Below the pieces are notes generated by a model. That model was not told the DNA's origin. It was given only the letters and a program-made list of their open reading frames with translations, and did no database searches. DNA of 57,674 bases from a virus: positions 1 to 57,674 of IMG/VR virus record IMGVR_UViG_3300020733_000019; one strand, written 5' to 3'. The stretch's first letter is position 1; every line of letters begins with the position of its first letter. Shown here piece by piece: positions 10,766 through 31,300 of this stretch. The translations under genes were made by a program, and so were the position numbers.

Positions 10766-11196
10766 AAGAACCTATAGTTTGTAGCGGAGCATTATTCTAC
10801 GCTAAATCTACACGACGTTTCCTACTATTACAGAAAGCACACGGCAAACACGAAGGTACCTGGGGGCTTGTAGGTGGGACCAATATCCAAGGCGAGACTC
10901 CTTGGCAGGGTTTACAACGTGAAATTACTGAAGAAATTGGTAGTCACCCAAAAATAATTAAGACAATTCCCCTTGAGACGTTTGTATCAAACGATCGTGT
11001 GTTTAATTTTCATACTTATCTGTGCGTAATAGAATCTGAATTTGTACCCGTGTTAAGTGACGAACACAATGGCTGGGCGTGGGCAGTCATTGACAGAGCT
11101 CCAAAACCTCTGCACCAGGGACTTAGAAATAGTTTTTCAAGTAAAACTATTCGTACAAAATTACAGACTGTATTTGACCTAGTTGATTTAATTTAA
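10747..11196 (+). CDS. Nudix hydrolase
   Basis: The protein has 149 residues. The Nudix box is complete: G-x5-E-x7-RE-I-x-EE-x-G is read in GTNIQGE ... REITEEIG at residues ~38-59, with the usual upstream strand FLLLQKAHGKHEGTWGLVGG. Nudix enzymes hydrolyse nucleoside diphosphates linked to another group; the specificity (NTP, ADP-ribose, CoA, NADH or RNA cap) cannot be read from the box. The start ATG lies 19 bases inside gp15 in another frame, and GroES follows after 11 bases. It and GroES stand between the virion genes and the tailoring cassette. Confidence 0.88.
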   Translation: MENNTVKEPIVCSGALFYAKSTRRFLLLQKAHGKHEGTWGLVGGTNIQGETPWQGLQREITEEIGSHPKIIKTIPLETFVSNDRVFNFHTYLCVIESEFVPVLSDEHNGWAWAVIDRAPKPLHQGLRNSFSSKTIRTKLQTVFDLVDLI

Positions 11197-11207: not shown

Positions 11208-11543
11208 ATGCCAGTGTTAAGACCAGTTCATGATAGGTTACTTGTTAAAAGAATAGAACCAGAAAAAACTACAGCAGGCGGAATAGTAATTCCAGTTGCA
11301 TCGCAGGATGAAAAAACATCAAAGGGTGTGATTGTTGCGGCAGGGCCTGGAAAATATTCTGAAAAAACAGGAATATTAATCCCAATGTCTGTTAAAGTAG
11401 GTGACGAAATAATGTTTCATCCTGCTGCCGGATCAAAAATTACCGTAGGCGGTGAAGCATATTGGTGTATGCCTGAGAGTGATGCATGGTGTGTAATTGA
11501 TCCAGATGAGCCCGTTGGCCCTGTTGAATTTAAATTTGATTAA
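11208..11543 (+). CDS. groES: GroES-type co-chaperonin
   Basis: The protein has 111 residues. It starts MPVLRPVHDRLLVKRIEPEK, carries the mobile loop TTAGGIVIPVASQ and continues SKGVIVAAGPGK, VKVGDEIMFHPAAGSKITVG and PESDAWCVID. PVHDRLLVKR, the AGGIV(I/L)P loop hydrophobic triad that binds GroEL, and the KVGDxxxF turn are all canonical for cpn10. T4 uses an unrelated-looking co-chaperonin (gp31) to fold its capsid protein with host GroEL, and a direct GroES homologue probably does the same here. The roof loop appears extended (HPAAGSKI). A very strong ribosome site (AAAGGAG, 7 bases upstream) points to high expression. Confidence 0.95.
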   Translation: MPVLRPVHDRLLVKRIEPEKTTAGGIVIPVASQDEKTSKGVIVAAGPGKYSEKTGILIPMSVKVGDEIMFHPAAGSKITVGGEAYWCMPESDAWCVIDPDEPVGPVEFKFD

Positions 11544-11550
11544 TTTTTAA

Positions 11551-12108
11551 ATGACTAATAAAGATCTATTAGATGCTAATAACTATTTTGTAGTGAAAGA
11601 TTTTATCCATCCTGATGCATTAACTGTTATTTCAAAAGAATTTAAAAAACATTGTATTAATACTTTTGCAAAACCTGATGATCAAGTTCCGGGATCACCG
11701 GCAGTGTATGGACATCCGCTAGTAGATAAAATCCTAATTTCAAAAATATTTTATATGAATGATCTAATAGGTGAAAGATTATATCCAACCTATTGTTACG
11801 GACGGTGGTATAAAAAAGGTGCAGAATTGCCTGCACATTTAGATGCAGAAGCATGTGAAATAAGTGTTACACTTAATATTAGTGGAGATGCCTGGCCAAT
11901 TTTTATTAAGAAGCCAGATGGTACACCTGCTAGTATTACTCTATCACCCGGCGAAGCTATGATTTACAAGGGAATGACTGCCGAGCACTGGAGAGAAAAA
12001 TTTGAAGGGACTGAGTGCATACAAGTATTTTTACACTATGTTAAAATCTTTGGTGCTAATTATTTTCAAGCATTTGATTTGAGACGTAACCCGGCAGGTC
12101 CTATATGA
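11551..12108 (+). CDS. 2OG-Fe(II) oxygenase-like protein 1
   Basis: The protein has 185 residues. The double-stranded beta-helix core holds H96-L-D98 (PAHLDAEACEISVTLNIS) and a distal H146 (GMTAEHWREKF), the two-His-one-carboxylate iron set. The usual 2OG-binding Arg ~10 residues after the distal His is not in its normal place; R148 or K150 may substitute. YCYGRWYKKG and LSPGEAMIYKG are typical flanking strands. Such proteins hydroxylate protein or small-molecule substrates with 2OG and O2. It is the first gene of the cassette, 7 bases after GroES with a weak ribosome site, and overlaps the next gene by 4 bases (ATGA). Substrate unknown. Confidence 0.75.
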   Translation: MTNKDLLDANNYFVVKDFIHPDALTVISKEFKKHCINTFAKPDDQVPGSPAVYGHPLVDKILISKIFYMNDLIGERLYPTYCYGRWYKKGAELPAHLDAEACEISVTLNISGDAWPIFIKKPDGTPASITLSPGEAMIYKGMTAEHWREKFEGTECIQVFLHYVKIFGANYFQAFDLRRNPAGPI

Positions 12109-12701
12109 TACAATATCATTTTCCTACAGCAATTCTAACAGAATTTCATCCTATTACAGCCAAAGCTATGCTACCTGTAGCAAGGAAGTATCTAGATGAT
12201 TCAAAGATAGCTAGCACCAAATGGGGATATACTACAACCTATGGATTTGAAAATCCAGGAGGTATCGCTTATATGCCGGATGTAGAACCTTTTAGAATTC
12301 TTATAGAAAAAACAGGAAGAAAATATCTTCATGATTTAGGATATGATAGTAAAGGTATAGAATTTTTTTCATTTGTATTTGTAAGCGAGATGTTTGAAGG
12401 TGCCTCTCATGATGAACATACTCATCCCGAATCTATATTATCGGGTTTATTATACTTACAAGTACCGCCGGGATCTTCTTCATTAATATTAACTGATCCT
12501 AGACCATTTAGAGATTTTGTACACATACCAAAATTAGATAACAAACCAACTAGTACTAATGTTTCGGAATTGACAATAGAACCTAAAAATGGTTTGCTAT
12601 TAATGTGGGAATCATGGTTGCCGCACCTTGTACCTAAAACTAAAAATAAAGATAATGGCCGCATTACTATGGTTTTTAATATTTGTAGGAAATCAGCATG
12701 A
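12105..12701 (+). CDS. 2OG-Fe(II) oxygenase-like protein 2
   Basis: The protein has 198 residues. The motif SHDEHTHPES then ILSGLLYLQVPP is the pattern of phage and bacterial small 2OG oxygenases that I associate with PF13759/TIGR02466. Aligning the SGLxYL strand places the iron ligands at H107 and E109, with distal H174 in SWLPHLV and the 2OG-binding R186 in GRITMVFNI. Thus HxE replaces the commoner HxD. It is coupled to its neighbours by ATGA overlaps on both sides. No transit signal or membrane segment is present; the substrate cannot be inferred. Confidence 0.8.
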   Translation: MIQYHFPTAILTEFHPITAKAMLPVARKYLDDSKIASTKWGYTTTYGFENPGGIAYMPDVEPFRILIEKTGRKYLHDLGYDSKGIEFFSFVFVSEMFEGASHDEHTHPESILSGLLYLQVPPGSSSLILTDPRPFRDFVHIPKLDNKPTSTNVSELTIEPKNGLLLMWESWLPHLVPKTKNKDNGRITMVFNICRKSA

Positions 12702-13399
12702 GTAATTTTTTTAAATTTGATAAAGATAACCATCCCTTAGCTGGAACTATAGTATGTAAAAATGATTTCTTTAATAATCCTCAAAAAATTATTGAACTTT
12801 CTAAAAAACAAACATACAATGGGTCCGAAAGATGGCCGGGAAAAAGAACTGATAATTTATTAGAATCTGTAGATCCTGAAAGCAGAGATTTTGCTGTATT
12901 TTTTGCTAAAAAATTAGGCACTGAAGTATTTCCAGGCATTAGTAGATTTAACACTCATATTAGCTTTCACATAAATGATGTATACGACGACGAAGCTTCA
13001 AATGAAGGGTGGATACATAATGATGATGTTACTCTCGCTGGATTAGTTTATCTTACCCCCAACGAAGCCAATTTTAATAACGGAACCTCAATTTTTTTAA
13101 AAAAAGGTGAGCAAGATTTTAGAAATACTGATTATCGATCTAGAAAAGATTTTAATCTTACTAAGATCGCTACTGAGCAATATAAAAAAGATTTAGCTAT
13201 GAATCATAGAAATTTTGAAGAGACTGTGCGATTTGGAAATTTGTTTAATAGATTAATTGCATATGATTCAAATTTGTGGCATAGGCCCAATAACTATAAA
13301 ACTAATACAACTTTTCCTAGAACGACTTTATTATTCTTTATTGATTTTTATGAATATGAATTTCCTAGCCTGTCAGTTGCTAGCAAGTGGGTAGATTAA
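12698..13399 (+). CDS. 2OG-Fe(II) oxygenase-like protein 3
   Basis: The protein has 233 residues. The core reads GWIHNDDVTLAGLVYLTP with H107-N-D109, distal H195 in NLWHRPNNY, and R208 in PRTTLLFFIDF, a complete iron and 2OG set. The long loop between strands includes NNGTSIFLKKGEQD. The layout resembles DUF6445-like proteins found beside bacterial tryptophan-halogenase genes, a recollection that should be tested. It starts in an ATGA overlap and its stop is one base before the next ATG (TAATATG). Confidence 0.75.
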   Translation: MSNFFKFDKDNHPLAGTIVCKNDFFNNPQKIIELSKKQTYNGSERWPGKRTDNLLESVDPESRDFAVFFAKKLGTEVFPGISRFNTHISFHINDVYDDEASNEGWIHNDDVTLAGLVYLTPNEANFNNGTSIFLKKGEQDFRNTDYRSRKDFNLTKIATEQYKKDLAMNHRNFEETVRFGNLFNRLIAYDSNLWHRPNNYKTNTTFPRTTLLFFIDFYEYEFPSLSVASKWVD

Positions 13400-13400
13400 T

Positions 13401-14042
13401 ATGTCTGAAATTGTAAACATTCCATTATTTCCAGTGCCGTTATTTAAACTGAAAGTAACTAATCACGAAAAGATTAAAAAATATTTAATGGATACCATTC
13501 ATCCACATTTCTTAAAGAATGAAATAAACGACAAATATGCCAATGTATATACTGATTATATTCCAGGAGCAGTAAAAGCTCCTTGGAAAATGCTGAATAA
13601 ATTTTATGAAGAAGATATAGAAGAATTTTTAAAAGCCACAGGAATAGATTTTAGCAAAGGATGGAGTTATAAATTTACCTGCTGGTATGGTATGATGACT
13701 GAAACTAAAAATTCTTTAGTACACGATCACACAGGAGGTCCAAGCACTATACAATGGTCAGGAGTCCATTATGTAGTACTAGATACAGATAAAGACAGCG
13801 GCGGAACTATATTTAATAATCCAAATGCTCGCATGATGAAGGGTGTTATTCCTACAAAAAATACTAGCAAAATTCCAGACCTTTATCGACCAAATGATCA
13901 GCAATGCATAGTTGAAGAAGGAGATTTAGTAATGTTTCCATCTTGGTTAGACCATCGCACTCCTGATCATTCAGGCTCGTTACGAGTTATAGTTGCTATG
14001 AATATTATGTTAAAATATACTGGTGAGATTGAGGGATATTAA
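13401..14042 (+). CDS. 2OG-Fe(II) oxygenase-like protein 4 (paralogue pair, copy a)
   Basis: The protein has 213 residues. The motif SLVHDHTGGPSTIQWSGVHYV gives H108-D-H110 as candidate first ligands, followed by SWLDHRTP (H185) and SLRVIVAMNI (R195). There is no Asp or Glu two residues after either His: H108 is followed at +2 by H110, and H110 by G112. If H110 is the ligand, the motif is HxG, the signature of 2OG-dependent halogenases. If H108 is, it is an unusual HxH. The next gene is a clear paralogue (matching IPxFxxxxFKxK, NHxKIKKYLMD, VPWKMLxKFYE and HDHxGGP). Confidence 0.72.
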   Translation: MSEIVNIPLFPVPLFKLKVTNHEKIKKYLMDTIHPHFLKNEINDKYANVYTDYIPGAVKAPWKMLNKFYEEDIEEFLKATGIDFSKGWSYKFTCWYGMMTETKNSLVHDHTGGPSTIQWSGVHYVVLDTDKDSGGTIFNNPNARMMKGVIPTKNTSKIPDLYRPNDQQCIVEEGDLVMFPSWLDHRTPDHSGSLRVIVAMNIMLKYTGEIEGY

Positions 14043-14045
14043 CCT

Positions 14046-14672
14046 ATGATAGTAGTAGATCGTATACCTATTTTTAGTACAGATATTTTTAAAATTAAAT
14101 TATCTAACCACAATAAAATTAAAAAATACCTAATGGATAATGTATACCCTGGGTTTTTAAAAGACGGGCCTAATGATCCCGTACAAAATGTATATACAGA
14201 TTCATCGGTATTTAAACAATCATCAATAAAAGTTCCGTGGAAAATGTTATCTAAGTTTTATGAAGATGATGTTTGGGAAGTCTTAAAAACTATAGGAGTA
14301 ACAAAAGATGATTGGAGTCTTGATTTAGGGTGTTGGTACGGATTTACAACGGAAAGTCTTTCAGAATTTGTACATGATCATTCAGGCGGTCCTAATAATT
14401 ATCAATTTGGTGCTGTACATTATGTAACGCTTGATACCGAATCATCTGGTACTGTGTTTGTAGATCCGTGTTCTAAACAAATAAAATCAGCTTTACCAAC
14501 TAATAGCCCTTCTCTTTGCCCTGACTATTTTGCTCCAACTAAAAGAGCTCCGGCAGTACAGGAAGGTGATTTTATCATGTTTCCTGCATGGCTTGATCAT
14601 CATGTTCCTAAACATACTAACGGAACACTACGGGTAGTCGTAGTTATGAATATTATGATTCGAACTATTTAA
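14046..14672 (+). CDS. 2OG-Fe(II) oxygenase-like protein 5 (paralogue pair, copy b)
   Basis: The protein has 208 residues, a diverged tandem copy of the preceding gene along its whole length. It shares IPIFSTDIFKIKLSNHNKIK, VPWKMLSKFYEDD, GCWYGFTTE, HDHSGG and AWLDHHVP. Ligand candidates are H110-D-H112 (H112 followed by S113-G114), distal H185 and R196 in TLRVVVVMNIM. It has the same absence of the usual carboxylate. The copies differ at many positions but keep all putative active-site residues, which suggests that both are functional. It is followed by a 46-base gap, the first break in the tight packing of the cassette. Confidence 0.72.
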   Translation: MIVVDRIPIFSTDIFKIKLSNHNKIKKYLMDNVYPGFLKDGPNDPVQNVYTDSSVFKQSSIKVPWKMLSKFYEDDVWEVLKTIGVTKDDWSLDLGCWYGFTTESLSEFVHDHSGGPNNYQFGAVHYVTLDTESSGTVFVDPCSKQIKSALPTNSPSLCPDYFAPTKRAPAVQEGDFIMFPAWLDHHVPKHTNGTLRVVVVMNIMIRTI

Positions 14673-14718
14673 TAATCACTATTAAAATCTAAAAACTGTA
14701 GAAATTATAAGTATAAAC

Positions 14719-15393
14719 ATGTCAGCTGTCAATCTTCCAAATGTTGGTTTTTTAATTGAGGATTTGAATCCTTTTGTATTTCAGCGAATAAAAAAAGAGG
14801 TACTTGTACATAAACAAGACTTTGAAGCAACAGAATCATTAGAAACGTCAAAGGATCTTTTACGAGCGTTCCATAAAAGAAAATTAGGCTATACAAAAGA
14901 TTATCAACTTTCTCCAGAGACAGAAGCAGTGTTTATGAAGGAAGTTTTTAAATTTGTTGATTTATTTGATCAGAAGTTTGCCTACGCTGGCAAAATGTTT
15001 AATTATACAGTTAATGTAGAAAATGTAGAAACTACGTTAGAGCTAGAAAGAATTTGGTTAAATTTTCAACGGCCTGGAGAGTTTTTACCTTTACATAATC
15101 ATTCGGGATTATACAGTTTTGTACTTTGGGTTAATATACCATTTGATAATAAAAATGAAAAAGATAACGAACCAAATCCTACATTAATTAAAAATAGAAC
15201 TAGTAATTTTGAATTTGTATATATTGATGCTTTAGGAAAATTAAGCAATCACGCTCTATATGTGGATAAAAAATGGGAAGGTAGAATGGCTATTTTTCCA
15301 GCAGATTTATATCATCAAGTGTATCCATATTATTCTACAGATGATACTAGAATTTCCCTAGCTGGTAATTTAAGGTTAAAAATTGTATCATGA
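14719..15393 (+). CDS. 2OG-Fe(II) oxygenase-like protein 6
   Basis: The protein has 224 residues. The core reads RPGEFLPLHNHSGLYSFVLWVN, giving H126-N-H128 (followed by S129-G130), then FPADLYHQVYP (H199) and TRISLAGNLRLK (R211). RPGEFxPxHNHSGxYSFVxW is a pattern I recognise from cyanophage 2OG-type proteins. As in the two preceding proteins, the carboxylate is replaced by His or Gly. The 46-base upstream gap contains TATAAAC just before the ATG, too close to be a convincing promoter. It overlaps the next gene by 4 bases. Confidence 0.75.
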   Translation: MSAVNLPNVGFLIEDLNPFVFQRIKKEVLVHKQDFEATESLETSKDLLRAFHKRKLGYTKDYQLSPETEAVFMKEVFKFVDLFDQKFAYAGKMFNYTVNVENVETTLELERIWLNFQRPGEFLPLHNHSGLYSFVLWVNIPFDNKNEKDNEPNPTLIKNRTSNFEFVYIDALGKLSNHALYVDKKWEGRMAIFPADLYHQVYPYYSTDDTRISLAGNLRLKIVS

Positions 15394-15986
15394 ACTTTGA
15401 AAAATATGAGTTTATGGGATTTATTGGGGTATTTGAAAATTACTTTAAGAATTCTTATTTTCAAGAAGTAATTAATTACTACGACTCAATATCAAAAATG
15501 CCGTTGCATTCTCAGGATAACACTCCTAAACATTGGAAAGATGACGAGCAATTATATTTGTTAGATCCTAGAGTTATTGTTACATTAAATCCAGAATATG
15601 TAAATCATTTTTTAGAAATACTTTGGGGTAAAATATTTCCCCTGTATGCAGAAAAGTTTAGTATACTACAGGAAAAATCTTATAAAGTAGAACAGATCAA
15701 AATGAAAAGAATAGAGCCGGGTGGAGGATTTCATCAATGGCACTATGAAGCATTAGGACATGATTCTAGAAGACGGCTAGTAGTTCAGTTATATATGAAC
15801 GATATTTCTGATGCAGGCGAAACTGAATTTCTATACCAGAACACTAGAATTATACCAAAAAAGAACAAATTATTAATATGGCCAGCTGACTGGACTCATA
15901 CACATCGGGGTAACCCACCTATCGGGAATACTAACAAATATATTTTAACCACATGGCTGGTAGAAGCAGATGAAGATAAAATTTAA
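15390..15986 (+). CDS. 2OG-Fe(II) oxygenase-like protein 7
   Basis: The protein has 198 residues. The motif GGGFHQWHYEALGHDSRR followed by LVVQLYMND gives H118-Y-E120. The distal site is WTHTHRGNPP (H172), a signature seen in many phage 2OG oxygenases, and K183 may bind 2OG in place of Arg. KMKRIEPGGGFHxWH is the entrance strand. All expected elements are present with HxE rather than HxD. It overlaps the following DUF6065-like gene by 17 bases. Confidence 0.82.
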   Translation: MNFEKYEFMGFIGVFENYFKNSYFQEVINYYDSISKMPLHSQDNTPKHWKDDEQLYLLDPRVIVTLNPEYVNHFLEILWGKIFPLYAEKFSILQEKSYKVEQIKMKRIEPGGGFHQWHYEALGHDSRRRLVVQLYMNDISDAGETEFLYQNTRIIPKKNKLLIWPADWTHTHRGNPPIGNTNKYILTTWLVEADEDKI

Positions 15987-16722
15987 CATAGATGATGAAC
16001 TAGCTTTAAAGCATTGGCCGCCCGTGCCTGCCAAGGATTATCTGCCAGATTGGTATTCTAACATGCCAAAGGCTCAAGAAACTTATAGTTACGACGAGGC
16101 TGCTATAAAAAGTATTAGAGCATGTGTACCTGTAGAAGATTTTTTAACTGCTGGATATATTCTCAAAGCAACTTTTGAACATAGGGTTTCGGAAGCCGTA
16201 GTTGATTTTAAACCCCAGATGAGTATACAAACTGCTAGAAAAACTGAAGATGATCCTCGATTCGAAGAAAGAAAAAAGAAAGCAGGACCCGCAGAATCAT
16301 ATGGATTACATCCAGACGGGCCATTGGGAATCTACAGCGAAGCTATGTGCCCCATGCGTTCTCAAGGTAAAAAAACTCAGGGAAATTATTTTAGATTTGA
16401 ATCTCCTTGGTCGGTACGCACTCCTCCAGGATATAGTTGCTTAGTTATGCAACCTTATTACTTATTTGATCAAAATGTCAATATTATGCCTGCTATAATT
16501 GATACAGATAAATTTGACAAACGAATTCCTGTTGTAGGGTTTCTTACAGGTAAATCAAAAGAAGTAAGATTTTTCGCAGGAGATCCTTTACTGCAAATTA
16601 TTCCTTTTAAACGAGACGAATGGGAATCTGAATTTACCACTGGGCCAATACTTAATAAATCTAAATTCTTTTTATTCAATGCTTACAAACGTATTTTTCA
16701 TTCACCTAAGAGATTTAAATGA
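15970..16722 (+). CDS. DUF6065-like protein, copy 1
   Basis: The protein has 250 residues, the first of three adjacent paralogues. Shared landmarks are PPVPAKDYLPDWYSNMP near the N-terminus, SIRACVPVEDFLTAGYIL at ~50-67, SPWSVRTPPGYSCLVMQPYY at ~145 and FFAGDPLLQIIPFKRDEW near the C-terminus. The IIDTD and GDPLxQxIPFKRxxW strands suggest a compact beta-sandwich or cupin-like fold, but I see no H-x-D/E iron site. I recall a domain of unknown function (DUF6065) of this size and pattern, and that assignment is unverified. Placed between seven oxygenases and the halogenases, it may bind the substrate or be a non-redox partner of the pathway; that is inference. It overlaps both neighbours. Confidence 0.65.
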   Translation: MKIKFNIDDELALKHWPPVPAKDYLPDWYSNMPKAQETYSYDEAAIKSIRACVPVEDFLTAGYILKATFEHRVSEAVVDFKPQMSIQTARKTEDDPRFEERKKKAGPAESYGLHPDGPLGIYSEAMCPMRSQGKKTQGNYFRFESPWSVRTPPGYSCLVMQPYYLFDQNVNIMPAIIDTDKFDKRIPVVGFLTGKSKEVRFFAGDPLLQIIPFKRDEWESEFTTGPILNKSKFFLFNAYKRIFHSPKRFK

Positions 16723-17420
16723 CCAATTTAATAACATTTGCAACTAGTGATCGTGAAACATTAGAAATGTTTCCTGTATTACCTGCATCAAAACTAATTC
16801 CTGAATGGTTTAAAGACATGCCTGTAGAGGTAGATGCATATATGGACGTAGTAGTACCCCATACTCCGACTATAAAAAGATGTATGCCAGTATTAGATTA
16901 CTTGACTACTGGTTATATTATTCGTGCTTCACATGAAATACAAATTAAAAAAGAAGTAGACGAACATTTTTTTAATTCTTTTAGATTTCGTAGTCGAGAA
17001 AATCACAAAGTTGTAGCAAAACATCCTCACCAGCAAGCCCAATTTTCAGAAGATGGCGAAAAAAGTCACTATCTTAAAATTCATCAACCTTGGTATATTA
17101 AGACACCACCGGGATATAGTGTCATGATATTTGATCCATTTTATCATTTTAGAAAAGAATTTAAAATTTTTCCAGGAGTTGTTGACACTGACAAGCACGA
17201 CGAAGTAATAGGGCTCGTGGCATTAGTTAAAGAAAAAGAGTTTATTATTAAACCGGGTGATCCGCTAGTAGTAGTATTTCCTTTTAAACGAAATGATTGG
17301 ACTATGAACACAGAATTTCGAGATAATGAGTATGAAAAGTCTAGTTTTAAATATAGACTTAGTACATACTGGGCCGGATTATATGCCAATTTAATGCATT
17401 CTAAAAAAACTTATAGATAA
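16719..17420 (+). CDS. DUF6065-like protein, copy 2
   Basis: The protein has 233 residues and clear similarity to copy 1: FPVLPASKLIPEWFKDMP, TIKRCMPVLDYLTTGYII, QPWYIKTPPGYSVMIFDPFY, GVVDTDKHDEVIG and KPGDPLVVVFPFKRNDW. It lacks the ~20-residue middle region that copy 1 has before the TPPGYS motif. The TPPGYS loop and GDPL-PFKR strand are the most conserved parts and the likeliest functional surface. The ATG overlaps the stop of copy 1 (AATGA), and copy 3 follows one base after its stop. Confidence 0.65.
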   Translation: MTNLITFATSDRETLEMFPVLPASKLIPEWFKDMPVEVDAYMDVVVPHTPTIKRCMPVLDYLTTGYIIRASHEIQIKKEVDEHFFNSFRFRSRENHKVVAKHPHQQAQFSEDGEKSHYLKIHQPWYIKTPPGYSVMIFDPFYHFRKEFKIFPGVVDTDKHDEVIGLVALVKEKEFIIKPGDPLVVVFPFKRNDWTMNTEFRDNEYEKSSFKYRLSTYWAGLYANLMHSKKTYR

Positions 17421-17421
17421 T

Positions 17422-18114
17422 ATGTTTACATTTTTTAACAAAAAATCTAAAATTGTATTAGATTGTTTTACATTTGTACCGGAGATAGCAACTCTATTTC
17501 CAATAATACATGCAGAAGACCGTATTCCTCCGTTTTGGAAAAATTTGCCAACTGTTGTAAAACATTCCGGCATCAGTAGAGGCACTATGAGAACTTGCCC
17601 AGGGGTTAGTTCATTATTTAGAACTGGATTCATTTTACAAAACTGGTCAGATTGTTGGATTAGCACCGAGAATGATAAGTTAACATGGTTTCCCGAAAAT
17701 GCAGGCGAACAGCATAACCCTAAACAATGGGGAGAATATCTTAAAAATTATCATCACTTAAAACTAGTTAGCCCGTGGAGGATACAAGAAAAAAGTGGTG
17801 TTAATTTTCTTTATACAAACTGTTTTTGGCACGACGACAATTTCAAACCTTTTGTAGTTAACGGGATGGTTGAATACAAATATCAATCAACTACTAGCGT
17901 AAACATGCTAATTCCAAAAACAATGTTTCCAAAAGATTTAACTATTCCGGCCGGTCAAGAATTAGCTCATATAGTCCCAATGTCTGAAAAGGACATTGAG
18001 ATTAAAATGCATACTATATCTAGAACAGAATATGAAAATCTAGGATCGTACACATTCTCGTTTAATGGACAATACTTTAAACGCAAAAAGTTATTAAAAG
18101 AGCAGGGTCTATGA
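17422..18114 (+). CDS. DUF6065-like protein, copy 3 (divergent)
   Basis: The protein has 230 residues and is the most divergent of the three. FPIIHAEDRIPPFWKNLP, TMRTCPGVSSLFRTGFILQ, LVSPWRIQEKSGVNFLYTNC and IPAGQELAHIVPMSEKDIE occupy the same positions as the motifs in copies 1 and 2. However, TPPGY has become EKSGV and the GDPL-PFKR strand is only partly kept. It starts MFTFFNKKSKIVLDCFTFVP. The divergence suggests a changed binding role rather than decay, since the frame is intact and the spacing of motifs is preserved. It overlaps the next oxygenase gene by 4 bases. Confidence 0.6.
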   Translation: MFTFFNKKSKIVLDCFTFVPEIATLFPIIHAEDRIPPFWKNLPTVVKHSGISRGTMRTCPGVSSLFRTGFILQNWSDCWISTENDKLTWFPENAGEQHNPKQWGEYLKNYHHLKLVSPWRIQEKSGVNFLYTNCFWHDDNFKPFVVNGMVEYKYQSTTSVNMLIPKTMFPKDLTIPAGQELAHIVPMSEKDIEIKMHTISRTEYENLGSYTFSFNGQYFKRKKLLKEQGL

Positions 18115-18740
18115 AAATACATTCATTGTTCCCAATTCCACTTTACGAACATCAAGGAACACAACAAGAAATATTTCTAATCCAGGACGAGATTAAAAAA
18201 AAATTATTAGAAATAGAACAAAAAGATACGTTTGAAAATCCCCCAGGGTGGGGCGATGGTGTCCAAACTAATATCAAAGCCAGACACAACTCTATAGATG
18301 ACTTTGAATTAGTGCATCTAAAAAGATATATCGAGTTACATGTTAAAAAATATATAGATGCTACACAATCATGGCATCCAGTTCCGATAGCCCTAAGGCA
18401 CAGTTGGATTAATAAAACGGGAAAAGATCAAGGACAAGATTGGCATCAGCATCAAGATTCATTTATTTCAGGTACATATTATTACCAAACCTCAGGAACT
18501 GACGGGGTATTTAGTATAATGAATCCTGTACCATACATGCAACAAGAGCTATTTCCGTTCGGTAATTTATCATATAAGAGCCACGATATTGTGCCAGCAG
18601 TTGGTAAGTTACTATTATTTCCCGGTTGGTTGATGCATTCTGTGGAAAAAAATAAAACTGAAAATATTCGTATCTCAATATCTTTTAATTTCCATAGAAA
18701 TCATTGGAGCGGCATCGCTCAAGATTCTACCTATATCTAA
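18111..18740 (+). CDS. 2OG-Fe(II) oxygenase-like protein 8
   Basis: The protein has 209 residues. It follows the same small-oxygenase pattern as protein 2: LFPIPLYEH at the N-terminus, RHSWINKTGKDQGQDWHQH, then QDSFISGTYYYQTSG, FPGWLMHSV and NIRISISFNFH. Ligands by alignment are H114 and D116, distal H176 and 2OG-binding R187, a complete set. W-x-N/H-x-x-G ... W-H-x-H and FPGWLxHxVxxN ... RISISFNF are the family hallmarks. It ends 38 bases before the first halogenase gene, where a late-promoter match occurs. Confidence 0.82.
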   Translation: MKIHSLFPIPLYEHQGTQQEIFLIQDEIKKKLLEIEQKDTFENPPGWGDGVQTNIKARHNSIDDFELVHLKRYIELHVKKYIDATQSWHPVPIALRHSWINKTGKDQGQDWHQHQDSFISGTYYYQTSGTDGVFSIMNPVPYMQQELFPFGNLSYKSHDIVPAVGKLLLFPGWLMHSVEKNKTENIRISISFNFHRNHWSGIAQDSTYI

Positions 18741-18778: not shown

Positions 18779-20398
18779 ATGAAAAAACCCATTAAACGAA
18801 TTATTATAGCAGGGGGCGGAAGCTCAGGTTGGATGTCTGCTGCCATGTTGTCTAAACAATTTCCTGACATGGAGATAGCATTAATTGAAAGTCCGGACAT
18901 TCCTATCATCGGCGTAGGCGAATCTACTTTGGGGACAATTAATCAATATCTAGGATTGCTTGGGATCAAAGATGAGGATTGGATGGAATACTGTAATGCT
19001 ACCTATAAATTAGCAATTAAATTTACAGATTTTTACGAAAAAGGTAAAGCATTTTACTATCCGTTTGGTCTAAAGGATCTTCAAAATACACAACAGGGTG
19101 CTACAGATTGGTATGTAAAAAAGACACTATATCCCGAAACCGACAATAATGACTTTTATGAAAGTCTTTATAGTTCAATGCCTATGATTTATCAGAGTAA
19201 AATATTTGATAATAAAGAAGGGCAATTACCGGGATTCAGCTGGAGAAATGATAGTGCTTATCATATGGATGCTACATTATTTGGCGAATTCTTAAAAGAA
19301 AAAATTTGTATTCCAAATGGAGTTGTGCATATTAGTGCAACTATCGAAGGAGTATTGCAAGAAGAAGACGGTTACGTTGCAGGTCTTAAACTCAGTAACG
19401 GTGATATAGTCGATGCTGATTTATATATTGACTGCACTGGATTTAAAAGTATATTGTTAGAACAAACTATGGGAGTAGAATTTGAATCATATTCTCCGCA
19501 TCTCCCTAACAACTATGCTTGGGTAACACATATTCCTTATATACACAAAGAAAGAGAAATGGAAAATGTTACAAACTGTACTGCTATAGAAAACGGCTGG
19601 GTTTGGAATATTCCGCTTTATGATAGAATTGGTAGCGGATATGTATTTTGCGACAAATTTATTTCTAAAGAAGAAGCTCTAGAAGAATACAAAAGATATT
19701 TAAACAGTGATAAAATGGTTGTACATAATCCTGCTAGAAGTCAATTCTTAGAATTTAGGTTGATTGAAATTAAAAATGGTGTACATGATAAAGCATGGGA
19801 GAAAAATGTTGTAGGTGTAGGTCTCAGCTATGCATTTGTTGAGCCGTTAGAAAGTACAGGATTGCTAAGTGTTCAAGAAATGCTGTTAAAATTATGTGAA
19901 ACTTTGCATAATAAGCAAATAAACAAGATACATATTGATCATTTCAACTATATTACACACTATGTAATGGACAGTTTTAGAAATTTTGTAACTTATCATT
20001 ATGTATTTTCTTCAAGACGTGATACCCCATATTGGCAATATATCACTAGTCAAATTGAGATGGATCCATTGATGTTTGATCGTAAACTTAATGCAATACC
20101 TACAGCGGCTACCGATTTAGCTGTTAAATTATTGCAAACTCATCACATGCCCGGTGATCCAAGTATGGGTGGTATGCCTGATATACTAGTAGGAATGAAT
20201 GTTTTACCTACATCTAAAACACAATTAGATATTGTTCGTATGATCATGGATGCAAGACAAGGACAAAGTGTAGAATTTTATACTAGTCAAACACAGGATT
20301 ATTGGGATCAAAAGAAAGAGTATATCGAATCTTTAGTTGAAACAGCTCCGTCTCATTATCAATATCTAAAAGATAACATTTATCACGGAAGAGATTAA
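18779..20398 (+). CDS. flavin-dependent halogenase (tryptophan-halogenase family), copy 1
   Basis: The protein has 539 residues from the ATG at 18779. An in-frame TTG at 18758 is rejected because AGAGGA stands 7 bases before this ATG and MKKPIKRIII-AGGGSSGW matches the family start. The FAD site is GGGSSG (12-17), then IPIIGVGEST (~41-50). The catalytic Lys is K81 in YKLAIKF, corresponding to K79 of PrnA. The halogenase-specific WxWxIP is W274-V-W276-N-I-P279. The catalytic Glu is E358 in EPLESTG, corresponding to E346 of PrnA. With all four signatures it should use FADH2, O2 and halide to make HOX and halogenate a substrate, probably aromatic. It needs a flavin reductase, absent here and probably supplied by the host. 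The stop shares a base with the next ATG. Confidence 0.93.
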   Translation: MKKPIKRIIIAGGGSSGWMSAAMLSKQFPDMEIALIESPDIPIIGVGESTLGTINQYLGLLGIKDEDWMEYCNATYKLAIKFTDFYEKGKAFYYPFGLKDLQNTQQGATDWYVKKTLYPETDNNDFYESLYSSMPMIYQSKIFDNKEGQLPGFSWRNDSAYHMDATLFGEFLKEKICIPNGVVHISATIEGVLQEEDGYVAGLKLSNGDIVDADLYIDCTGFKSILLEQTMGVEFESYSPHLPNNYAWVTHIPYIHKEREMENVTNCTAIENGWVWNIPLYDRIGSGYVFCDKFISKEEALEEYKRYLNSDKMVVHNPARSQFLEFRLIEIKNGVHDKAWEKNVVGVGLSYAFVEPLESTGLLSVQEMLLKLCETLHNKQINKIHIDHFNYITHYVMDSFRNFVTYHYVFSSRRDTPYWQYITSQIEMDPLMFDRKLNAIPTAATDLAVKLLQTHHMPGDPSMGGMPDILVGMNVLPTSKTQLDIVRMIMDARQGQSVEFYTSQTQDYWDQKKEYIESLVETAPSHYQYLKDNIYHGRD

Positions 20399-20976
20399 TG
20401 ACTATGGAGTTTAAAAATGCTGATCGTAAAAAGACAGCACATAATTTGTATTGCGCTCCTATGCTTACTAAGGAGGAGTGCAATGAAATTATAAAAAACT
20501 CCAATAAATGGCTAGAAGGAACTGTTTTAAAATTTGGACAATTTATTAAAGTTAAAGAATATAGAAGTGTTCAGATTTGTAGAACTTCCGTCACAGAAGA
20601 GCTAGTAGATAAAATTTTTGTAACTGTTTTTAAAGTAAACACTGCAACATTTAGATTTCATTTAGACGGATATGACGAAAGAGATGTCCCAAATGTTTTA
20701 AAATATTCGGCAGATCGTGGGGATCATTATGTATGGCATACTGATTTAATTCCAGGTGATGCTGTTAGAAAATTATCGTTTACTATACAGTTGTCAGACC
20801 CATCCGAATATGACGGTGGTGATCTGGAATTTAGCCCTGGCACTACAGATCCAAATATAAGAAAACAAGGTATGATGACTATATTTCCGTCATATGCTAC
20901 TCATCGAGTTACTCCGGTTACTCGAGGAACAAGATATGCAATAGTAGGGTGGATTTATGGTCCCGAATTCAGGTAA
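20398..20976 (+). CDS. 2OG-Fe(II) oxygenase-like protein 9 (prolyl-hydroxylase-like)
   Basis: The protein has 192 residues and is the most canonical oxygenase of the cassette. YVWHTDLIPGDAVRKLSFTI gives H114 and D116; SDPSEYDGGDLEF is the GGxLxF strand typical of prolyl-4-hydroxylase-type enzymes; TIFPSYATHRVTPV gives H169, and RGTRYAIVGWIYG gives R179. The closest well-known pattern is the PKHD/P4Hc type, which hydroxylates proline or other residues in proteins or peptides. It sits between two flavoprotein genes, overlapping one base upstream and 20 bases downstream, so it is translated with the halogenases. Confidence 0.9.
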   Translation: MTMEFKNADRKKTAHNLYCAPMLTKEECNEIIKNSNKWLEGTVLKFGQFIKVKEYRSVQICRTSVTEELVDKIFVTVFKVNTATFRFHLDGYDERDVPNVLKYSADRGDHYVWHTDLIPGDAVRKLSFTIQLSDPSEYDGGDLEFSPGTTDPNIRKQGMMTIFPSYATHRVTPVTRGTRYAIVGWIYGPEFR

Positions 20977-22171
20977 AAAATTTAGATTAGGTGTTATTGG
21001 AGCAGGTACTGCTGGAATAGTTAGTATCTCTCATATAATTCCTTGGCTTTCTAATAGCTGGGACGTAGTATCTATATACGATCCTAGCACTCCTATACTA
21101 GGCATAGGAGAAAGTACAAACCCTAATTTTTTATCAACTTTAGAATTTGGAACTGGCTTTAGAGAAACTGAAGACATTGAAAAATTAGAAGGCACACTTA
21201 AATTTGGAACAAAATATATAGGGTGGCGATCAGAAGATTGGATTAATCCTTTATTCGGTGCTGGACACGCATTACATTTTAATAATTTTAAATTAAAAGA
21301 GTTTGCATTTGAAAGATTTAAACAAAAATGGCCTGACAAATTTAAAGTTATTGAGGGTGCAGTTACATCTGTTACTAATGAATTTCAGTGTGTGCATGTT
21401 ATAGTTAATAATACTATTGAAAAATTTGATTACATTATAGACTGTAGAGGATTTCCTGAAGATTATTCAGATTATGAAATTAGTAATTGTTCTCCTTTAA
21501 ATCGATGTTTTGTCTATAGTACGCCATCGCACGTAACAGACCAGTTTCCATGTACCGAACATATTGCTACAAAACATGGTTGGACTTTTGGAATACCATT
21601 GTCGACTAGGCACACCTATGGATATTTGTTTAACGATACGATTAGCACTGAAGATCAAGTTATAAAGGACATGTCTGAAATGTTTTCAACAGATTTAAAA
21701 AAAGATAATCTAGTTGACTATAAGTTTAAATCATACTACAGTAAAAAAATCTTAAACAAACGTATATTAAAAAATGGAAATAGAGCATTATTTTTTGAAC
21801 CGTTGAGTGCAAGTAGTATTTTTTGTTATGTTGAAATTGCTGAGCTTTTTTTACATCATTTAAATAAAAATGAAAAATACAATGAATTTTTTGTAAATAC
21901 TGAATTTATTAAATTAGCCAAATCATTAGAAGACATGCTGTCATTTTTATATCACGGGGGCACTAATTACGATACAGAATTCTGGAGATTTGCTAAAGCA
22001 AGGGCAGTTGATCGATTAAATAACAGTAACGCATTTTCAGAAATCATTGTTGAATATAAAAAAATGTTTAAAAATGGAACACCGTTAACTGGAAAAAGTT
22101 GGTTTTTCTTACCTCACAATTTAAGAATTATCGACGAACAAATGAATTATAACTATTTTAAAGAACTATGA
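20957..22171 (+). CDS. degenerate halogenase-like flavoprotein
   Basis: The protein has 404 residues, ~135 shorter than the neighbouring halogenases. The FAD signature is intact (GVIGAGTAG, then ILGIGEST), and the catalytic-Lys strand is kept as LKFGTKYIGW (K86). The WxWxIP motif is altered to GWTFGIPL. The catalytic Glu motif EPLESTG has become EPLSASS (281-287), placing Ser284 where Glu should be. IDCRGF matches the usual IDCTGF. It is therefore a true family member that keeps flavin binding and the Lys but has lost the Glu and part of the substrate domain. It may be a non-halogenating monooxygenase, a regulatory partner or a flavin-handling subunit. The frame is intact, so decay to a pseudogene is not indicated. 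It overlaps both neighbours. Confidence 0.82.
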   Translation: MVPNSGKKFRLGVIGAGTAGIVSISHIIPWLSNSWDVVSIYDPSTPILGIGESTNPNFLSTLEFGTGFRETEDIEKLEGTLKFGTKYIGWRSEDWINPLFGAGHALHFNNFKLKEFAFERFKQKWPDKFKVIEGAVTSVTNEFQCVHVIVNNTIEKFDYIIDCRGFPEDYSDYEISNCSPLNRCFVYSTPSHVTDQFPCTEHIATKHGWTFGIPLSTRHTYGYLFNDTISTEDQVIKDMSEMFSTDLKKDNLVDYKFKSYYSKKILNKRILKNGNRALFFEPLSASSIFCYVEIAELFLHHLNKNEKYNEFFVNTEFIKLAKSLEDMLSFLYHGGTNYDTEFWRFAKARAVDRLNNSNAFSEIIVEYKKMFKNGTPLTGKSWFFLPHNLRIIDEQMNYNYFKEL

Positions 22172-23793
22172 GAAAACCTATTGAAAAAATCGTAATAGTC
22201 GGTGGTGGTAGTGCTGGCTGGATGACAGCGGCATTGCTAACTAAGAAATTTCCAAATTTTAAATTTACATTAGTTGAAAGCCCCGATGTTCCAACTGTCG
22301 GTGTGGGCGAATCTACACTAGGTACATTAAATTTATTTTTACATTTATTAGACTTAGACGATAAAGAATGGATGGAATACTGTAACTGTACTTACAAGCT
22401 AAGTATAAAATTTACAGATTTTTATAAAGTAGGTGAAACATTTTACTATCCTTTTGGGCAAAAAGATAGAAAAACTACACTAGCCGGATTAACTGATTGG
22501 TATCACAAAAAATTATTGTACCCCGAGACTCCTTGGAATGATTTTTATGAGTGTGTATATAGCACAATGCCGTTAATCTATAACAACAAAATGTGCGACA
22601 ACATAACAACTCCTAAACTAGAAGGCTATAGTTTTAAAAATGATTCAGCATATCATATGGATGCCGCCTTATTGGCGCAATTTTTAAAAGAAAAGTATGC
22701 CATTCCTAGCGGGATGGAATATATACAACAACATGTAACTGACATTATTAAAGATGCAGACGGTTATTTAGATCACTTAGTATTAAAAAATGGTGAAACA
22801 GTAACTGGTGATTTGTTTATTGATTGTACAGGTTTTAAAAGTTTGTTGTTAGAACAAACTATGGGGGTGCCTTTTGAAAGTTTTAAAAAATGGCTTCCTA
22901 ATGACCATGCTTGGACATGCCATGTTCCGTATCACGATAAAGAACTCGAAATGGAAAATGTTACAAATTGCACAGCTTATAACAATGGTTGGGTATGGAA
23001 CATTCCATTATATCATCGTATTGGCAGCGGGTATGTTTTTAGTAGTGATTTTATTAGTATAGAAGATGCACTAGAAGAATATAAACAATATCTTAACAGT
23101 GATAAGATGACTTATCATGATTCGCACCGAGCTGATAATTTAGAATTTAGATTAGTCAAGATTAAAAACGGAACTCATAACAAGTGTTGGGAAAAGAATG
23201 TTGTAGGAGTAGGTTTAAGTTATGCGTTTATTGAACCTCTGGAAAGTACAGGCCTATTCAGTGTAACAGAAATATTAGAACTATTGTATCAGATTCTAGA
23301 CAACGAACAAATAACAAAAATGCACGAAGATTGGTTTAATCGCGAAGCTAATTTACTCATGCAGTCTTTTAAATGTTTTGTTACATACCATTATGTGTTA
23401 AGTTCTCGAAAAGATACACCTTATTGGAAACATGTTACTGAAAACATAGAAATGGATAAAAGACTAATTGATAAACAGTTGGCAGAACTACATACTATGA
23501 CAGCTGAACTAGGTAATAAATTGTTTAATGAACATGAACTTGGTGCAAATATGGGAGGTCTTCCTGATATATTTGTAGGAAATCATTTACTACCAGTTAA
23601 CAGAATGTCATTAGAAAAAATTAAATATGACGGACTATATACAATACCCGGGCAAAGTATGATTCCAGAAATTCTTAAAAAAGAAACACTTCAATACTGG
23701 GCTCAGAAAAAGATTAAAAATGAACTTGTGGCAGCTAAGTGTCCAAGTCATTATCAATATTTAAGACAAACATATCATAACGGTAAGGAATAA
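22168..23793 (+). CDS. flavin-dependent halogenase (tryptophan-halogenase family), copy 2
   Basis: The protein has 541 residues and is close to copy 1 throughout (shared EWMEYCNxTYKLxIKFTDFY, ENVTNCTA, RIGSGYVF, WEKNVVGVGLSYAF). It has the FAD site GGGSAG, GVGEST, catalytic K81 in YKLSIKF, WVWNIP at ~275-280, and E359 in EPLESTG. All catalytic residues are therefore intact. Differences between the copies cluster in residues 135-160 and the C-terminal 100 residues, the substrate-binding parts of this family, suggesting different substrates or regiochemistry. Its start overlaps the stop of the degenerate copy (ATGA). It is the last gene of the cassette and ends at a strong terminator. Confidence 0.93.
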   Translation: MRKPIEKIVIVGGGSAGWMTAALLTKKFPNFKFTLVESPDVPTVGVGESTLGTLNLFLHLLDLDDKEWMEYCNCTYKLSIKFTDFYKVGETFYYPFGQKDRKTTLAGLTDWYHKKLLYPETPWNDFYECVYSTMPLIYNNKMCDNITTPKLEGYSFKNDSAYHMDAALLAQFLKEKYAIPSGMEYIQQHVTDIIKDADGYLDHLVLKNGETVTGDLFIDCTGFKSLLLEQTMGVPFESFKKWLPNDHAWTCHVPYHDKELEMENVTNCTAYNNGWVWNIPLYHRIGSGYVFSSDFISIEDALEEYKQYLNSDKMTYHDSHRADNLEFRLVKIKNGTHNKCWEKNVVGVGLSYAFIEPLESTGLFSVTEILELLYQILDNEQITKMHEDWFNREANLLMQSFKCFVTYHYVLSSRKDTPYWKHVTENIEMDKRLIDKQLAELHTMTAELGNKLFNEHELGANMGGLPDIFVGNHLLPVNRMSLEKIKYDGLYTIPGQSMIPEILKKETLQYWAQKKIKNELVAAKCPSHYQYLRQTYHNGKE

Positions 23794-28397: not shown

Positions 28398-31300
28398 TTA
28401 TCTCTGACTGAAGAACGCCAGTGCAACTGGAGCTCCATCAATACCACCTGTAAACGTCATTTTGCTTGTTACTAAAATCTGATTACCTGTTGTATTACTT
28501 ATCGTATTGTTAGCAATGTAAATCTGTCCAGAAGTTATCGTATTTACGTTTAGTGAGCTTGAGCCTCCACCAATTTGGGCTGTAATATACGATTTAATTG
28601 CTTTTTGTGTCGGTACAACGTTATCACTGTTAGCTGTAAAGTACGGATCTGTTGAAAAGCTAGTAATAGTTGCTGAACCTGTACCAACTTGCAAGTTACC
28701 CAGTGTCAAACTCTGCAATCCGCTTAGAGCAAACGCACTAGCGTTCAATGTAGCAGTACCAGTTGACTGTTGAACTCCGAACAAGTTACCAACGTTAAAG
28801 TTACCGTCTTGGTCAGTACTTGTAAAGAATACACGACCACCGCCTGTAGCATATGACTGATTAGCTTGTATAGCATTGCTAGGAACTACGTTTGGATAGT
28901 TGGTTTGTGTTTGATTACCTGTACCAATGTACAAGAAATCGTGTCCTGTTAAACGTACTTGGCTATATTTCAAACGTGTAGTAATCAGTACATTATGTGC
29001 AGGAGCAAGTAATGTACTTAATGCTGGATTGATTTGGAATGTTGCTGTATAGTTACCAGCAATGCCTAAAATGTTTGAAACAGTAACTAATTTATACCAT
29101 TGGTTTGAACCGCCAATTGATGCAAATTGTACGTTAGCACCCGCTGTTGGAATAGCATAAATGTTAGATACGTTGATAAATGACGAATTTTGATATAAAT
29201 CAGCATATCCATCACCTGCTGTGTTTGCAGTAGCAGTAGCATTGTTCAATCCTCTATTAGTAAAACTTGGATTTGCTAATGCGCCGTCACCCATACGTAC
29301 ACGTAACGGTGCTGTATTAACCTTGTTAGGATCAATTTGTGTAACAACTGGGCCTGCTGTATAAATCATTCCTGTTGGACTTGTTGTAGACAATGTTACG
29401 GCTGTTGTACCACCTGCAGTTGCAGTCACTTGGAACGATGTATTAGTTACAATTGAAGAACCAATTATATAATAAGTAGTGTTGGTTGTTAAACCTCCAC
29501 TTGATGCACTAAATTCAACCGGTTGATTATTTGCAAGGCTTGTGCTTAGACCAGTAGTATCATCAACTGTAATTACGTTTGTGCTAGTTGTAGTAGCACT
29601 AACGTTACCTTTAGAGAAACCGCTACCTGGTTCGACCATACGTACTTCAGTAATCGCTCCACTAGCTACTTTCATACGCCCTTGTGGCTGTGTTCCTAAT
29701 CGTAAACTACCAGCGGCTGTTCCGCTTGTGCTACTTACAATGGCCCAAATTGGTTGGGCGCCGATTGCAGTAGTAGAAATATTACTTAAATTACCAAATG
29801 CAATCGCACTCCAGTTTGTACTAGACGGTAATGTACGTAGTGTCCATACTAGCCCGTCTGGACTAGTAGCCGCTACAGTACCTTGACTAATTGCAACAAA
29901 TTGTCCCTGGGCATAAGCAATCTTAGTCCAAGTATAAGCTGAACTTAATACGCTTGTAGTTGTTCCTAGACACGCCGGACTTGCGATCCAGTTAGTACCA
30001 TAGTTAACTGTGTATGCTACAGCTCCGTTAGATGCTAGTGCTACAAATCTGTTGTTACCATATGCAATACTAGTCCAGTTTTGTGTGCTTGGTAGTACAC
30101 CGCCTGCATTCCAGCTTGATCCATTATTTGAAATAGATGTTACTGTACCACCGTAGTTAATAGCAATAAATGTTCCACTTGCATTACCACCAGCACCATA
30201 TGCTACTGCTGAATAGTAACCAGCACTTAGCGCAGTTAATGTTCTAGAAATCCATCCGCTTGCGCTAATTGGATTAGAACTAGATGCGGCAGTTGCTGTT
30301 CCGCTTGCACCACCGACTGCTACGTAAGTTCCTGCACCATATGCTATTCCGTATAAGTTTAATACTGGTATGTATGCATTACCTGTTCCGTTACCAAGAA
30401 CAGTCCATGCTGAACTCAATGTACTTGGTAAATTGTAAGCAAAATATGTACCAGTAGACGAAGTAGTACTCATAGCCAAGAACACTGCACCAGTATCTAA
30501 AATAGTTACAGTTGGCACGCTAGTATATCCATAACCTGCTGTTGTGACTGCTATCGCAGTTACAGCACCATTACTAAATGTTGGTGTGCCACTTGCTTGG
30601 GTAGCAACATAGGTAAAATATGCTGTACCGTTTTGAATATTAGTATATCCACTAGCAGTTGTATAATCAAATGTAGGTACTGTACTACTTGTAGTTCCAG
30701 AAGTAACACACAAATAAATTCTACCAGCTGTAGTTTGATAGTAAGTTGTAGCTGTTGCTGAACCACTAATTGGATAAGCAGTTGGAGATAACCCTTGGGG
30801 TTGACTAAATGTTACTGACGGAGTACTATAGTAGTTTTTACCCCAAGTATTCATTGTTACACTCGAAACAATACTAGTGTTTGCTGTCACAGTCGGTGGT
30901 GCTGTGTAACCGCTACCATTAATAGTCATAGTTACTGATGTTATTGCACCATTTAAAACGGTACATGTTGCTGTTGCACCGCTTCCGCTTGAACTTACAA
31001 AAACAATAGTTGGAGGTGTTGTGTAGTTATATCCGCCGTTGACAATAGTTACGCTAACAACTTGGGTAGCACTTGTACCAGTACCAATCACAGCAGTTAA
31101 CACCGCTCCTGCACCGCCAAATCCACCAACTACTGCTGTAGCTGTAGCACCTTGCCCACCGCCGTAAATTACGTTATTCCATGTTTGACTGCTTGGCAAA
31201 ACACCACCTACACTCCACGAAGTACCATTAGTAGAATACTGGGTTGCAGTTCCGCTTGTAACTGTGGCTACAAATCTTCCTGCACCAAACCCTACTGCAC

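Follow-up and report, generated by a model that had tools for sequence, protein, structure and literature searches.

A glutamate-free clade of compact halogenase-like flavoproteins with a member in a phage oxygenase cassette

The known systems comparable with the proteins described here include the tryptophan halogenases PrnA, RebH, Thal and SttH and VirX1 of cyanophage Syn10 (PDB 6QGM). In Thal, any replacement of the catalytic lysine abolishes tryptophan halogenation, while hydroperoxyflavin and hypohalous acid (HOX) still form (PMC7948982), and the lysine is also essential in PltM (PMC6424973) and RadH (PMC5637929). Exchange of the catalytic glutamate of PrnA for glutamine slows the enzyme about 100-fold without inactivating it, and phenol halogenases were reported to lack this glutamate (PMC8407142). 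A comparison of T4-like cyanophages published in 2010 listed one PrnA cluster, GC 212, with long (1437–1593 nt) and short (1104–1167 nt) genes (PMC3037559). Compact genes have therefore been annotated before, and the superfamily itself is known. This study deals with a compact halogenase-like flavoprotein of 404 amino acids, here termed MID, which carries a serine in place of the catalytic glutamate. It is encoded at positions 20957–22171 (+ strand) of IMG/VR virus record IMGVR_UViG_3300020733_000019, of which the whole stretch of 57,674 nucleotides was analyzed (the window). The Glu-free clade to which MID belongs is a real and well-defined sub-branch, for which neither published work nor a published function was found in the literature searched.

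MID was matched by PF04820 (Trp_halogenase; 2.9e-29; 102.7 bits against a curated cut-off of 21) in two stretches, an N-terminal and a C-terminal one, the middle of the profile being missing. The two flanking proteins, FDH1 (539 amino acids, 18779–20398, + strand; 1.3e-108) and FDH2 (541 amino acids, 22168–23793, + strand; 7.9e-109), cover the same profile almost end to end. MID is 135–137 residues shorter than these proteins and is devoid of the segments equivalent to FDH1 residues 99–156 (58 residues) and 481–523 (43 residues), which we take to belong to the substrate-binding half. It possesses a GAGTAG flavin adenine dinucleotide (FAD) motif, E52, K82 (RebH K79), GWTFGIP and E281-P-L-S284. 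Compared with the tryptophan-type enzymes PrnA and RebH, the FAD motif and the catalytic lysine are thus present, whereas S284 replaces the catalytic glutamate (E346/E357) and GWTFGIP stands in place of WxWxIP. The four-gene layout and its positions, the intact E358/E359 and WxWxIP of the flanking halogenases, and the EPLSASS, GWTFGIP, FAD site and reduced length of MID had all been given correctly in a preliminary description of the locus. The lysines named there (K81, K81 and K86) have to be corrected, however: alignment with ASYK79VAIK83F of RebH places the catalytic residue at K77 in FDH1, K77 in FDH2 and K82 in MID, four residues before the one chosen. The K82 column is invariant (48/48 Glu-free, 44/44 short Glu-type and 43/43 full-length proteins), while the K86 position is a lysine in only 28 of the 48 Glu-free members. 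MID has kept the catalytic lysine, against the earlier view of selectively lost catalytic residues. G15, G17 and G20 of the FAD motif and E52 are invariant as well.

A tblastn search with MID revealed relatives in 66 phage records, most of them annotated as tryptophan halogenase; the best were 36–38% identical and came from cyanophages S-MS29 and S-SSM5. Scans of IMG/VR added more than 100 further loci, some of which are overlapping fetches from one contig. As MID served as the seed of this sampling, the sizes of the clades do not reflect abundance. The compact proteins are mostly 360–430 amino acids long, and GWxF occurs in 92 of the 92 core members, in comparison to GWxW in most full-length halogenases. 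Short length and the W-to-F exchange are hence traits of the whole compact branch and not peculiarities of MID, so that the earlier view of residues selectively lost relative to the neighbouring halogenases does not hold. The short GC 212 forms of S-SSM5 and S-ShM2 share branch and length class with MID, but keep the glutamate (EPIEAF and EPMEAT), which is absent in MID. Tandem pairs of compact Glu-type genes adjoining a carbamoyltransferase gene were observed at two loci (L055:7001–9423 and L061:5796–8215).

In the core of the compact branch, the catalytic column separates two clades. One contains 43 E and one D (n = 44) and shows the motif EP[LIM]EALSG; in the other (n = 48), 27 S, 10 F, 5 I, 5 V and 1 A were found, and thus an acid in none of the members. 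In a maximum-likelihood tree calculated without the motif columns and rooted on full-length halogenases as outgroup, the 43 Glu-free rows included grouped together with a branch support of 100/99 and in 200 of 200 bootstrap trees; quick trees agreed with this grouping. As the Glu-free rows form one clade under this rooting, the glutamate was lost once, at the base of the clade. The exchange in MID is not due to chance, since its nearest relatives (63–80% identical) all carry serine and lie with it inside the 48-member clade. The loss described for MID is consequently real, but it is the trait of a clade and not private to this locus. Glutamate-bearing homologues, which had been expected to speak against it if they carried the standard EPLESTG, do exist in the sister clade; their distribution reads as one loss and leaves the finding intact. 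Outside the core, Q occurs separately at the catalytic position in S-SSM7, P-TIM40, CP21, locus L071 and a full-length protein of Syn1.

Further positions shifted between the Glu-type and the Glu-free clade (288 from G to I/L, 286 from L to N/T/S, 221 from W to Y and 220 from G to T/S). At position 63 (window positions ~21143–21145), 42 of the 48 Glu-free proteins carry E or Q (33 E, 9 Q), and 41 of the 44 Glu-type proteins an aromatic residue (F, Y or W). Taken together, the alignment indicates a coherent remodelling of the Glu-free clade at these five positions. A compensating acid was also considered, but the alignment shows no acid that all Glu-free members share and the Glu clade lacks, and hence no obvious carboxylate fixed in its stead; the candidate at position 63 is E or Q and therefore no strict acid.

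An AlphaFold2 model of MID, built from a 45-row alignment, reached a mean predicted local distance difference test (pLDDT) score of 93.3. Searches with Foldseek and VIA-align matched the model to tryptophan halogenases over its whole length (Z 32–40 over PrnA, RebH, Thal and SttH, with SttH at 40.5, RebH at 37 and PrnA at 37; VirX1 30), and residues 8–404 could be superimposed on SttH with 384 aligned residues and a root mean square deviation of 3.1. MID is thus predicted to fold as a complete halogenase. It shares this fold, the FAD motif, the invariant lysine and the EP pair with PrnA, RebH, Thal and SttH, but differs from them by the missing catalytic glutamate, the Phe at the second Trp, the absence of the two segments and the replacement of the Gly of EPLESTG. 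VirX1 likewise has fold and lysine in common with MID; in contrast, MID is ~130 amino acids shorter, carries Ser and WxF instead of Glu and WxW, and is only 17% identical in the structural alignment.

The ratio of nonsynonymous to synonymous substitution rates (dN/dS) of MID against three relatives was 0.09–0.24, slightly higher than for the two halogenases FDH1 and FDH2 and in the range of other genes of the cassette; with synonymous sites close to saturation, these values are rough. As stated in the preliminary description, the frame is intact, and it is under purifying selection. Decay to a pseudogene was ruled out by the intact frames and by dN/dS values well below 1, the near-saturated synonymous sites notwithstanding, and a sequencing or assembly error by the identical serine in independent contigs. 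As judged from sequence comparison, MID belongs to a large, old and widespread phage side branch of the halogenase superfamily and is not a decayed copy of FDH1 or FDH2. It very likely functions as an enzyme, whatever its reaction.

The position of MID between FDH1 and FDH2, in an order kept in four close relatives, could mean that it serves one of them as a partner or regulator without catalytic activity of its own, and a partner subunit had been proposed. The genomic company of the Glu-free proteins makes this quite improbable. Of the 14 phage records examined that encode a Glu-free protein, 7 (one of 223 kb) contained no other PF04820 protein, although records may be fragments. Likewise, at least six of the ten bacterial draft genomes, which may be incomplete, showed the Glu-free copy as their only PF04820 protein. 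Since such copies occur without other family members, a non-catalytic role beside a halogenase is unlikely; furthermore, FAD motif, E52 and lysine are all invariant, which would be needless in a dead subunit. The other role proposed, a different oxidation chemistry, fares better, as an altered chemistry or substrate is a reasonable reading of the clade-wide loss of the glutamate.

The bacterial copies come from ten chromosomal loci; the draft genomes concerned bear the labels Vampirovibrio, Vampirovibrionales, cyanobacterium, Eremiobacterota, Myxococcaceae, Polyangiaceae and others. They are 38–44% identical to MID and carry EPLVANS or EPLIANS. The nine bacterial members in the tree form one group (100/100) nested among the phage Glu-free proteins. 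Where flanking genes could be identified, they were of the usual chromosomal kind (Mg chelatase ChlI-type, sulfate permease, Na/H exchanger, PilZ, OmpA), and beyond a PilZ-type gene near three copies no shared bacterial neighbourhood pointed to a function. Copies are rare, occurring in 4 of 97 and 5 of 98 genomes of the sampled groups, mostly seeds, and this sporadic occurrence suggests horizontal transfer.

If MID is catalytically active, reduced FAD and O2 would first yield C4a-hydroperoxyflavin, the standard front half of the reaction, and this would react with halide to hypohalous acid, which would be delivered past the invariant Lys82. MID would dispense with the glutamate of the tryptophan halogenases, as reported for phenol halogenases. 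Its substrate would be electron-rich, phenol-like or macromolecular, would enter through a pocket in which two segments of the full-length enzymes (58 and 43 residues) are missing, and the enzyme would work beside the 2-oxoglutarate/Fe(II) (2OG-Fe(II)) oxygenases of its cassette. A fixed lysine combined with a freed glutamate is the profile expected of a halogenase that attacks electron-rich substrates without the help of the glutamate. We therefore favour, tentatively and at somewhat less than even chances, the reading of MID as an active, FAD-dependent, lysine-dependent and Glu-independent compact halogenase, probably on such a substrate and beside 2OG-Fe(II) oxygenases. The whole-length fold match, the single origin of the Glu-free state, the low dN/dS and the fusion with, or proximity to, 2OG-type oxygenases speak for it as well. 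The phenol halogenases RadH, PltM and Rdc2 are reported to have the essential lysine and to lack the glutamate of the tryptophan enzymes (PMC8407142, PMC5637929, PMC6424973), and E281 of MID, which like K82 is invariant in the Glu-free clade, may occupy the position equivalent to the essential D325 of RadH, a match by motif only. In contrast to these enzymes, MID groups with the tryptophan halogenases both in sequence and in fold.

MID could also be a tryptophan- or indole-type halogenase of the usual kind, with the part of the glutamate taken over by Ser or water and the rest unchanged. This would agree with a fold and a lysine identical in kind and with the slowing of the PrnA Glu-to-Gln mutant by two orders of magnitude rather than its inactivation (PMC8407142). 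However, MID lacks the equivalents of FDH1 99–156 and 481–523, and the glutamate evidently matters where the chemistry is kept, with E or D in 44 of 44 members of the Glu-type sister clade. This explanation is consequently very improbable.

Several observations weigh against halogenation by MID. Its FFEPLS, with Ser, lies outside FX[DE]PX[EFL], a motif of active flavin-dependent halogenases that permits F or L at the Glu position (PMC8407142); the F subclade of Glu-free proteins (L121, L124, L128 and others) fits this motif, with exactly FxEPxF. MID also departs from Fx.Px.Sx.G, said to mark every active halogenase (PMC8407142), by A285 for Ser and S287/I288 for Gly in the motif spacing as interpreted here. 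The second Trp of WxWxIP, a motif suggested to prevent mono-oxygenation (PMC8407142), is Phe in MID, but likewise in the Glu-type sister clade. Moreover, no flavin reductase was recognized within the window, and the compact members have no known activity.

The main rival to halogenation is hydroxylation. According to this possibility, which is rather unlikely, MID would be a flavin mono-oxygenase on a halogenase fold like QhpG, in which the hydroperoxyflavin passes OH directly to a protein or a small aromatic compound and halide is unused. QhpG, a flavoprotein of tryptophylquinone biogenesis, resembles FAD-dependent halogenases in its reported fold and can hydroxylate protein Trp, introducing two hydroxyl groups (PMC7876137). 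The departure from two published halogenase motifs, the loss of the second W of the motif thought to block mono-oxygenation (PMC8407142) and the location among oxygenase genes would fit such an activity. On the other hand, the lysine is absolutely retained, a residue that in Thal serves halogenation itself and is dispensable for hydroperoxyflavin formation, and the W-to-F exchange is conservative and also present in the Glu-type clade. In addition, MID matched no NCBIfam model, the QhpG and LodB equivalogs included; FDH1 reached only 30 bits against 240 for the QhpG model.

The link to 2OG-Fe(II) oxygenases extends beyond this locus. Directly upstream of the Glu-free gene at 29 loci, PF13640 was found in 10 and PF13759 in 8 cases (the sets may overlap); related oxygenase families are frequent upstream of the Glu clade, too. 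In two independent phage contigs (L114:4980–6917 and L116:4752–6719), the Glu-free flavoprotein is fused to a C-terminal phrog_2954 domain. The fusion proteins are 58.5% identical, and the fused domain keeps HxD...HWR, as is typical of 2OG-Fe(II) oxygenases. PHROGs labels phrog_2954 and phrog_3531 as ferrochelatase; as both carry the HxD...H pattern, this is likely a misannotation of 2OG-Fe(II)-like proteins. At six loci (L030, L029, L026, L034, L033 and L111), a protein of 540–569 amino acids is encoded directly upstream of the Glu-free gene; searches of Pfam (L030) and of Pfam and PHROGs (L026) gave no family match.

Within the window, the + strand genes for FDH1, the oxygenase OG8, MID and FDH2 follow each other directly or with overlaps of at most 20 bases. 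FDH1 (GGGSSG, K77, GWVWNIP, E358 in EPLESTG) and FDH2 (K77, GWVWNIP, E359) are VirX1-type flavin-dependent halogenases and close relatives of VirX1, with Lys, Glu, WxWxIP and full-length similarity to this enzyme. VirX1 (6qgm) is the best PDB match of FDH1 (408 bits, nearly full length), and FDH2 is 39–40% identical to cyanophage halogenases, Syn10 included (39% to the Syn10 locus). OG8 (192 amino acids, 20398–20976; PF13640 9e-16, phrog_61) is a PKHD-type 2OG-Fe(II) oxygenase, with scores below cut-off for the PKHD-type NCBIfam models, and its 3' end shares 20 bases with the 5' end of MID. Upstream, all on the + strand, follow OG7 (18111–18740), a 2OG-Fe(II) oxygenase immediately before FDH1 (PF13759 2.4e-19), three tandem phrog_7084/DUF6065-like genes (15970–18114), five 2OG-Fe(II) oxygenase genes (starts 12105, 13401, 14046, 14719 and 15390) with a DUF6445 gene (12698) at 12105–15986, and OG1 (11551–12108), a phrog_2954 protein labelled ferrochelatase with an HxD...HWR motif, of the family of the domain fused in L114 and L116. 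Eight 2OG-Fe(II)-type oxygenase genes and one DUF6445 gene are thus found in ~9.5 kb (11551–18740 plus 20398–20976), which is unusually dense. The phrog_7084 trio has diverged (mutual identity 22–30%), its order is conserved in relatives, and its structure model was unusable (pLDDT 60). The head of the cassette encodes a NUDIX hydrolase (10747–11196) and a GroES-like co-chaperonin (11208–11543).

The order OG5, OG6, three phrog_7084 genes, OG7, FDH1, OG8, MID, FDH2 and fibre genes is the same in L001, L003 and L023, but is not kept in more distant relatives. Two giant tail-fibre-like genes on the − strand (28398–41459 and 41508–49970) encode 4353 and 2820 amino acids, the first with five CBM_5_12 stretches. 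The tail sheath (1163 amino acids, 2405–5896, − strand) best matches PA5oct-like and Phosso phages of 285–469 kb, so that the record could represent only part of the genome of a large phage.

The label tryptophan halogenase is widely given to phage proteins, of which a large, well-defined subset is devoid of the catalytic glutamate; the annotation PF04820 or phrog_2928 may therefore conceal more than one kind of enzyme. The two sister clades, with E or D in 44/44 and 0/48 members and the lysine fixed in both, represent a natural experiment on the role of the glutamate and also probe the boundary between halogenation and hydroxylation. The fusion with a 2OG-Fe(II) domain suggests a route to the substrate of MID-type proteins. 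As the cassette adjoins tail-fibre genes, the Glu-free clade might even be a new enzyme type which, paired with or fused to a 2OG-Fe(II) oxygenase, acts on aromatic residues in the proteins of the phage particle. This is unlikely; if true, it would represent a phage system for post-translational modification built on the halogenase fold.

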